From assembly GCA_022402525.1 (NCBI GenBank), contig JAKRSB010000112.1:62001-126000 (forward strand): 64,000 bases of DNA. Direction: 5' to 3'. The notes under the pieces are model-generated. The model made no database searches. It was not told the DNA's origin and saw nothing but the letters and a program-made list of their open reading frames with translations. This document shows, piece after piece, positions 1,788-4,185 of the stretch. This DNA is from Thermosynechococcaceae cyanobacterium MS004. Lineage in GTDB: Bacteria; Cyanobacteriota; Cyanobacteriia; Thermosynechococcales; Thermosynechococcaceae. A program made the position numbers and the translations under genes. Each line of letters begins with the position of its first letter. Position 1 is the first letter of the stretch.

Positions 1788-3143
1788 TTAACCCCTAAAT
1801 TCCACTGAGCGAGGGACTTTTTGATCCAGACGGGTTGCCTGCTCCAAAGCCGCAAGTTCCTTTGCTCTGGCTGCATAAGGCCGTAAACAGTCGAGCGTCA
1901 AGCCTGACAAAATACTTAGGTTTTCTAAGCTGATGCCCCGCAGCAGCATATCGATATACCAGGTTTGCTGTGCTTGGGCGATCGCCCAGTTTCTCGTGTT
2001 TTGTCCCGTGTCTTGTCCATCAGCAGACTCCATCTCTTTAAGCCAGGTCTGCCAGCGCGCTTCAATCTCTAGCGCTGATATGGGTTGCCCTGCATCGTCC
2101 AGAAACAGTGCTGAATTATTGTCTTTGCGCCCTCTTAAGTACTTAGTGAGCGGATTTGCCGTGTAGGAGCCATAGCGCTTGCCTAAAACCCACTGATTAA
2201 TCGGCACCGAGCGCTGGGGGATTCCCACGCGCAAAACATGCTGGTGGGCGTCACTGGTGTGGTGCGATCGCCCTAGTCCAGCAACCTCAGCAGCCGATAG
2301 ACCCGCCGCAAACAGCACATAGGCCAAGGCATAGTCACGGTTTCCCAGCTTGCGGGTGCGTCGCAAAATCTCATGGACTACACCCGCAGGTAACTCCAAT
2401 CCCTTCTGAAGAGTGGCTGGCAGCGGTTCAGCTTTTTGCGTTGCCGAATCTGTTGCCGAATCTGTTGCCGAATCTGTTGCCGAATCTGTGGGCAAACCCA
2501 TCGGCAAATCTGTGGGCAAATCCGTCGGCAAGAATAACTGCACAAGACCGTCTAGGAATTCATCTTGAGTTTGCCAAAGTCCATGATTCTCAGACGTAAA
2601 CTCAATCATGGCGTACCCCAGCATTAAGCTATGGAGCAAACTTATATTGCCCTCGACGCGGATATTGCCCTCGACGCGCGTGCTGCCTCCGACCTCTCCT
2701 AGTCCCAAACTCGCTAAATATTGAGCGCCACGCCGATTAATAGCGCCTAGTCCTACCCCCAAAGCCCGCCGATTTCCGGGGGGGTACTGTTCCGCTTCAC
2801 CCACCACAGAGCAAATGAGCTGAGGTGCCTCTCGGATCGCCTGTAAGCACCCACTTGCGTAAGCCCTCAAGATCGAGGCCGATCCTGAATCCTCCACCCT
2901 CCGTCCCCACTCTAGCGATACCGACCGCTCTAGAGATTCACTGATTTTCTGGAAGGTATGAGCATCTTCCAAAATGGCCAAAAGCAAGCCATACTTGCTG
3001 CCAAAATGACGAAAAAGTGTGACCTCATTCACATCAGCTCGCTCGGCAATTTTGCGAGTAGGCGTGCCAACCCCCTGGGCGATAAACAGCTCTAACGCAG
3101 CATAAATCAGCTTTTGACGGGTTGAATGACTTGGAGCAGACAT
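1788..3143 (-). CDS. TetR-family regulator with degenerate tyrosine-recombinase-like C-terminal domain
   Basis: This 451-residue protein is about twice the usual TetR length. Residues 8-55 are a TetR DNA-binding domain (start RQKLIYAALELFIAQG, then the helix-turn-helix around KIAERADVNEVTLFRHFGSK). A ligand-domain-like helical part follows to about 205, then a low-complexity linker of repeated TDLP and SATD units. Residues 250-440 resemble a phage-integrase catalytic domain: NRDYALAYVLFAAGLSAAEV matches the helix around catalytic Arg I, and the segment ending in LRPYAARAKEL matches the tyrosine end. Arg I is replaced by Ser (GLSAAE rather than GLRxxE) and the HxxR pair is not visible, so recombination activity is unlikely. 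It is divergent from the desaturase gene; two matching inverted repeats between them are its likely operators. TetR identity is secure; the C-terminal assignment is an inference from pattern. Confidence 0.8.
   Translation of the reverse strand: MSAPSHSTRQKLIYAALELFIAQGVGTPTRKIAERADVNEVTLFRHFGSKYGLLLAILEDAHTFQKISESLERSVSLEWGRRVEDSGSASILRAYASGCLQAIREAPQLICSVVGEAEQYPPGNRRALGVGLGAINRRGAQYLASLGLGEVGGSTRVEGNIRVEGNISLLHSLMLGYAMIEFTSENHGLWQTQDEFLDGLVQLFLPTDLPTDLPMGLPTDSATDSATDSATDSATQKAEPLPATLQKGLELPAGVVHEILRRTRKLGNRDYALAYVLFAAGLSAAEVAGLGRSHHTSDAHQHVLRVGIPQRSVPINQWVLGKRYGSYTANPLTKYLRGRKDNNSALFLDDAGQPISALEIEARWQTWLKEMESADGQDTGQNTRNWAIAQAQQTWYIDMLLRGISLENLSILSGLTLDCLRPYAARAKELAALEQATRLDQKVPRSVEFRG
2440..2535. 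repeat. In-frame 12-bp tandem array encoding the TetR linker
   Basis: Eight 12-bp units: four identical (GTTGCCGAATCT), then four diverged ones of the GTGGGCAAATCC/ATCGGCAAATCT kind. They encode the TDLP/SATD repeats between the regulator's two domains. Because 12 is a multiple of three, copy number can change without a frameshift. Confidence 0.9.
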
Positions 3144-3191: not shown

Positions 3192-3210
3192 TTGCAAGCA
3201 ATACTTGCAA
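3192..3210. promoter_or_regulatory. Operator 1: 19-bp perfect inverted repeat
   Basis: TTGCAAG-CAATA-CTTGCAA: 7-bp arms, 5-bp spacer, in the gap between the TetR-like gene (starts at 3143, minus) and desC (plus). A second site 48 bp away (centre to centre) shares the core GCAAGCnnTACTTGC. Size and symmetry fit a TetR dimer site. The cognate regulator is inferred from divergent orientation. Confidence 0.7.
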
Positions 3211-3241
3211 TTTTGATGAAGGATTGTTAGCATGGTTTTAT

Positions 3242-3256
3242 GCAAGCGGTACTTGC
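3242..3256. promoter_or_regulatory. Operator 2: 15-bp inverted repeat matching operator 1
   Basis: GCAAG-CGGTA-CTTGC differs from the core of operator 1 only at the two central bases (GG for AA). It lies 66 bp upstream of the chosen desC start at 3322, where a repressor would block transcription. Its presence argues against translation starting further upstream. Confidence 0.65.
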
Positions 3257-3321: not shown

Positions 3322-4185
3322 ATGACTTCAACCTACCCCAGCGCTTCCCCTCAGGGGAGCCAGCTCCCTGCACTAAACTGGACAAACGTTGCGTTCTTTG
3401 GTGCATTTCATGTCGTGGCGCTCCTGGTCGCGCCCTTTTTCTTTTCCTGGTCAGCGATCGCGGTTGCGCTGTTGCTGCACTGGCTGTTTGGGGGCATCGG
3501 CATTTGTTTGGGCTTCCACCGTCTGATTAGCCATCGCAGCTTTCAGGTGCCTAAGTGGCTAGAGTATGTAATCGCCACCTTGGGCGCACTGGCCATTCAG
3601 GGTGGGCCAATCTTTTGGGTGAGCGGCCATCGGCAGCACCACGCTTTTACCGAGCATGTAGATAAAGATCCCTACTCCGCCCAGCGCGGGTTCTGGTGGA
3701 GCCATATTCTGTGGATTTTGTACCCTAAGCCTGAATTTTTTGACCCCAATATTTATCAAAAATATGCGCCAGACCTTATGCGTCAGCCCTACTATCGCTG
3801 GCTAGACCGCAACTTTTTAATGCTTCAGGTGCCCTTGGGGTTGGTGCTTTATGCCCTGGGCGGATGGTCTTTCGTTATTTACGGTATTGCGGTGCGCTCT
3901 GTGCTGCTGTGGCATTCAACCTGGCTGGTCAATTCTGCCACGCACATGAGGGGCTATCGCAGTTTTGAGTCCGACGATGGCTCCAGAAACTGTTGGTGGG
4001 TTTCGCTGTTGACCTACGGTGAAGGCTGGCACAATAATCACCATGCTTATCCCCGTGTGGCAAAGTCTGGCTATCGCTGGTGGGAGATTGATACAACTTG
4101 GTGGGCGATCGCGGTGCTCCAGAAGCTAGGGTTAGCGAAAAAGGTGATTGCGATGCCGAGTCAACAGGTCAGTCCTGAATCTTAA
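3322..4185 (+). CDS. desC: Acyl-lipid/acyl-CoA delta-9 fatty acid desaturase (DesC type)
   Basis: A membrane di-iron desaturase that puts the first double bond into membrane fatty acids. The three histidine boxes are intact: HRLISH (H66, H71), HRQHH (H103, H106, H107) and HNNHH (H237, H240, H241). Hydrophobic segments lie before box 1 and between boxes 2 and 3, as in the family; 287 residues is close to usual length. ATG 3322 is chosen because AAGGA lies 5-9 bases before it; the longer frame from 3232 would run through an operator. It is divergent from a TetR-like regulator with two paired operators, so its expression is probably controlled by that protein, perhaps in response to a lipid signal (inference). 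A hairpin follows at 4225. Confidence 0.92.
   Translation: MTSTYPSASPQGSQLPALNWTNVAFFGAFHVVALLVAPFFFSWSAIAVALLLHWLFGGIGICLGFHRLISHRSFQVPKWLEYVIATLGALAIQGGPIFWVSGHRQHHAFTEHVDKDPYSAQRGFWWSHILWILYPKPEFFDPNIYQKYAPDLMRQPYYRWLDRNFLMLQVPLGLVLYALGGWSFVIYGIAVRSVLLWHSTWLVNSATHMRGYRSFESDDGSRNCWWVSLLTYGEGWHNNHHAYPRVAKSGYRWWEIDTTWWAIAVLQKLGLAKKVIAMPSQQVSPES

Follow-up and report, generated by a model that had tools for sequence, protein, structure and literature searches.

The region under study lies in a 64,000-nucleotide stretch of DNA from a cyanobacterial genome (hereafter, the window), where a gene encoding a TetR-type protein and a gene encoding a membrane fatty acid desaturase diverge from a 178-bp gap (Table 1). 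This gap contains two 15-bp inverted repeats of the form GCAAG-N5-CTTGC (operators 1 and 2), which are 48 bp apart and present mismatches at bases 7 and 8 only. The original prediction had described a matched pair with this spacing, differing at two middle bases, and the pair is real; of the coordinates proposed for it (3192-3256), the end holds but the first site begins at 3194, 2 bp later. The probability of finding at least two such repeats in the gap by chance is about 3e-8 to 7e-8. Genome-wide (4.93 Mb, 150 contigs), there are ten GCAAG-N5-CTTGC repeats, three of them at the tetR-desaturase locus, and four sites matching the GYAAGYNNNRCTTGC consensus, with three again at this locus and the fourth inside a GntR-type coding sequence. 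Exact matches to GCAAGCNNTACTTGC occur in this genome only at the tetR-desaturase locus.

Table 1. Features of the tetR-desaturase locus, with positions given in the window.
Feature	Position	Strand	Basis and remarks
tetR	1788..3143	-	TetR HTH and ligand-type domain, repeat-rich linker, non-catalytic tyrosine-recombinase domain
Tyrosine-recombinase domain	1791-2405	-	Fused to TetR; conserved across cyanobacterial families
Third operator-like site, GCAAGCCATACTTGC	2984..2998	+	Inside the HTH codons of tetR; exact match to GCAAGCNNTACTTGC
Putative operator 1, GCAAGCAATACTTGC	3194..3208	+	Sequence; equivalent site in 106/106 loci; flanks T...A
-35-like element, TTGCAA	3205..3210	+	Sequence; overlaps operator 1; geometry kept in 103/106 loci
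Extended -10 element, TG-T-TAGCAT	3225..3233	+	17 bp from the -35; hexamer TAGCAT at 3228-3233
Putative operator 2, GCAAGCGGTACTTGC	3242..3256	+	Sequence; equivalent site in 106/106 loci; begins at the predicted transcription start
Membrane delta-9-type fatty acid desaturase	3322..4185	+	Clade common to hemN-linked DesF-like enzymes

The 3' arm of operator 1 contains the putative -35 element of the desaturase promoter, and transcription of the desaturase is predicted to start near 3240. A generic scan returned no consensus sigma-70 match, with both the -35 and -10 elements being weak relative to that consensus, and a promoter for tetR was sought and not found. The desaturase start was set at 3322, with GAAGGAAC just upstream of it; the ATG at 3232, which defines the longest ORF, was rejected because it precedes the predicted transcription start.

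Desaturase control in cyanobacteria is usually discussed as temperature sensing, and the gene had been designated desC in the original prediction, with membrane fluidity as the controlled property. Phylogenetic analysis placed the window desaturase and the hemN-linked desaturases in a single clade (SH-aLRT 100, in a tree without DesF itself), separate from the canonical DesC clade (HNNHHA..SARHG). The desC designation is hence not upheld, and control of membrane fluidity at low temperature is left unsupported. DesF of Synechococcus 7002 is a hemN-linked, low-oxygen isozyme under ChlR control, and its gene sits directly downstream of hemN (PMC4500134). The window copy is not located downstream of hemN but divergent from tetR, and its clade suggests that it may be described as DesF-like, so that an oxygen or lipid-state signal would be at least as plausible as cold. 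A second desaturase of the same clade is encoded in this genome directly downstream of hemN, on another contig (C74, locus L181), without the motif; its neighbor is identified as HemN by TIGR00538, above the cut-off.

Homologs of the TetR-type protein were sought in 390 cyanobacterial genomes sampling the class and were identified in 200 of them (E <= 1e-20), with the regulator occurring in about half of the sampled genera. The comparative analysis was performed on 106 distinct loci, those fetched with both tetR and the desaturase gene, and sites were picked by their match to the pooled consensus, with one mismatch tolerated, or two at most. The expectation that relatives would share the motif in their tetR-desaturase gaps was borne out: across the cyanobacteria, the desaturase is divergent from tetR and two operator sites are present in the gap in all 106 loci. 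Pooling of the sites gives the consensus T-GYAAGYNNNRCTTGC-A, in which most bases of the arms do not vary, and the base just 3' of operator 1 is an A in 105 of the 106 loci. Among the 35 loci with a 47-bp spacing, the operator arms share 94-96% identity from locus to locus, whereas the DNA around the operators is 28-44% identical (40% upstream, 28% downstream). The motif is retained by homologs that are 34-42% identical, some of them with one clear site only. A peptide-pattern scan of contigs returned no relatives, whereas the whole-genome search did find them.

Site spacing is 46-48 bp in 87 of the 106 loci, with other values of 42-60, 72 and 83 bp, and keeps to no single helical phase. Counting from the TTGCA that closes site 1, 103 of the 106 loci have a TANNNT hexamer 16-18 bp downstream, as opposed to 10% in shuffled spacers, and the TGN extension of the -10 is present in 94. 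Site 2 starts 6-8 bp past the -10 in 89 loci, and the variation in spacing falls mostly between these two elements. In the two outlier loci (72 and 83 bp) site 1 remains near tetR and an additional CCTTGC would act as the -35 at the correct distance. Site 1 lies anywhere from 2 to 400 bp away from the tetR start (usually about 10 bp; 51 bp in the window), which indicates that the pair follows the desaturase promoter. The 48-bp spacing can thus be attributed to the geometry of the predicted -35, -10 and transcription start, and the location of site 1 on the -35 and of site 2 on the transcription start points to steric repression.

To assess specificity, the full architecture, comprising both sites and the promoter geometry, was written as a single pattern and run on the 390 genomes. 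It was detected in 131 of them, always as one match per genome, and the reversed-pattern control yielded no matches in the same set. All 131 pattern-bearing genomes encode the TetR homolog, and the full pattern is absent from each of the 190 genomes lacking the homolog, outlining a one-to-one link between site pair and regulator. Variant sites, diverged homologs and fragmented contigs were observed in the inspected subset of TetR-positive, pattern-negative genomes. The whole-genome motif search anticipated in the original prediction gave matches concentrated at the tetR-desaturase locus. A wider regulon was considered and rejected, with off-locus matches in this and 12 other genomes being isolated and at control level. 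The motif is also absent upstream of the hemN-linked desaturase of this genome and of desaturases of the same type in TetR-less relatives, a control based on a related enzyme and not on a strict ortholog. The co-occurrence of pattern and TetR homolog, together with the motif-less hemN-linked copies, hence suggests that the regulator looks dedicated to a single gene pair. The proposal that the repeats serve as operators of the adjoining TetR-type protein is supported by their retention in relatives and with the restriction of the pair to regulator-bearing genomes.

The TetR HTH and ligand-type domain of the regulator encompass residues 1-205. The HTH matches PF00440 with 47 bits against a cut-off of 24, and was identified in 38 of 38 relatives. 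The TetR part is also predicted to have an all-helical C-terminal ligand/dimer domain, with a fold similar to those of the acyl-CoA-responsive proteins FadR of Bacillus and FasR of Mycobacterium (TM by target 0.6-0.66); TetR_C families were matched in part of the relatives. Residues from about 250 to 441 are predicted to fold like the catalytic domain of tyrosine recombinases, and the profile of this C-terminal domain matches the XerC-like 4a8e (E 2.8e-5). The residues of active tyrosine recombinases (R-K-H-R-H/W-Y) are not conserved: the first R is replaced by S, the HxxR histidine by E and its arginine by Q, so that both catalytic arginines are lost and the tyrosine is the only catalytic residue retained. 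The anticipated departure of this regulator from the architecture of DesT and FabT-like systems was confirmed in the fusion of TetR with a non-catalytic tyrosine-recombinase domain, which could conceivably bind DNA. Kept across families, this domain constitutes an unexplained protein architecture. In the linker, positions 2440-2531 contain tandem 12-bp repeats (GTTGCCGAATCT and variants) that encode PTD/SATD between the TetR and recombinase-like domains.

One family (f5) includes TetR homologs without the recombinase-like domain. Within it, the second site of genus g15 is degenerate and the other good, indicating that the pair is not indispensable, and genera g71 and g75 retain two sites, indicating that the domain is not required for the motif. 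A link between the recombinase domain and the second operator was rejected on the same grounds, since g71 and g75 have two sites without it. Loci L216, L217, L219 and L228-L230 encode homologs lacking the domain, and in these site 1 is good but site 2 is degenerate.

A third operator-like site, missed in the original prediction, lies within tetR. The full site is present at the same codons in 24 of the 106 loci, many of them close relatives and hence not independent, against 0.16 expected from synonymous codon resampling; for the window alone, the same procedure gives P = 0.003. In loci with the serine codon AGC, codons AAG, GGC, TTG and CTT are nearly fixed and neighboring codons vary. Presence of the site requires nine changes on the desaturase tree, which indicates that it recurs in several lineages. 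A paired test for co-evolution of its arms was not significant (same direction in 3.6 pairs vs 0.5). The third site is flanked by A...T, as opposed to T...A at operators 1 and 2, and may tentatively be considered a probable auxiliary operator.

We consider it highly probable that the repeats are dimer sites of the divergently encoded TetR-type protein, operating as a local repressor with a clamp on both the desaturase promoter and tetR itself. Dimers would occupy both repeats and bracket one promoter, with site 1 over the -35 and site 2 over the first transcribed bases, and the bound repressor would keep RNA polymerase off the desaturase promoter. Expression of tetR would also be limited from site 1, given that the tetR start codon usually follows it by some 10 bp. 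A ligand, plausibly an acyl derivative, would free the repressor from the DNA. In a search of the open-access literature, neither this regulator nor the motif was found described. The system would represent a previously undescribed and testable local switch on a membrane-lipid enzyme, and a conserved repressor-operator module dedicated to a desaturase would also provide a promoter part of small size for engineering strains.

The original prediction had attributed the pairing to cooperation or looping between two dimers. A cooperative switch of this kind, based on dimer-dimer contact or DNA looping, and possibly involving the third site in a lac-O2-like role and the recombinase-derived domain as a bridge, appears unlikely. 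Two sites are almost universal, the third recurs at the same codons in several lineages, much more often than synonymous resampling would predict, and tyrosine recombinases assemble across paired sites; however, promoter geometry accounts for the spacing without a lock to helical phase, one lineage gets by with a single clear site, and two genera of family f5 retain two sites without the recombinase domain. Furthermore, most loci lack the third site, and the co-change of its arms is not significant on the tree. Cooperation may occur, but is not needed to explain the pair. It is likewise rather improbable that the retired tyrosine-recombinase domain serves as an oligomerization module, with dimers on operators 1 and 2 and on the third site forming a higher-order repression complex. 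Some TetR-family proteins, such as FasR, operate as activators, and the fold of the TetR part is similar to that of FasR and FadR, yet the sites overlap the -35 and the transcription start rather than lying upstream, making it very unlikely that the protein activates the desaturase or has a dual role in its regulation. Reading the repeats not as TetR operators but as hairpins in mRNA or DNA, or as sites where the recombinase-like domain attaches, is scarcely credible, despite their adjoining a gene with a recombinase fold, given that the domain lacks the first histidine and the two catalytic arginines, that the motif is kept beside homologs without the domain and that only a promoter lies between the sites.

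The proposed repression of a divergent gene pair by the TetR-type protein can be compared with several known systems. As in TetR/tetA-type local repressors, an HTH protein is encoded in a divergent gene pair with dimer-sized palindromic operators that lie in the gap and overlap a promoter, but here two separate 15-bp sites surround one promoter, the protein carries an additional recombinase-derived domain and the target gene encodes a lipid desaturase. DesT of Pseudomonas, a TetR-type protein not known to carry a recombinase domain, controls desaturase genes in response to acyl-CoA, distinguishing saturated from unsaturated chains; its likeness to the window system, where tetR adjoins the gene of a membrane desaturase, is one of gene neighborhood, and implies no match in operator sequence, ligand or architecture, with the resemblance in fold to FadR and FasR as the one lead toward acyl-CoA binding. 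FabT, which the original prediction had also invoked, is a MarR-family protein. The ChlR-controlled operon chlAII-ho2-hemN-desF (PMC4500134) is related through the desaturase, which belongs to the hemN-linked clade in a host that also has a hemN-linked copy; in contrast, the window copy lacks the link to hemN and adjoins TetR, not ChlR. The C-terminal domain shares its fold and weak sequence similarity with the XerC/XerA tyrosine recombinases (PDB 4a8e, 5hxy), but differs from them in its missing catalytic residues and its fusion to TetR. Comparative sequence analysis shows the sites with their geometry and conservation, as well as their link to the regulator; the module they form is real, conserved and functional-looking, and is most likely a local TetR repressor-operator system of a variant type, whose regulator carries an unusual fused domain.
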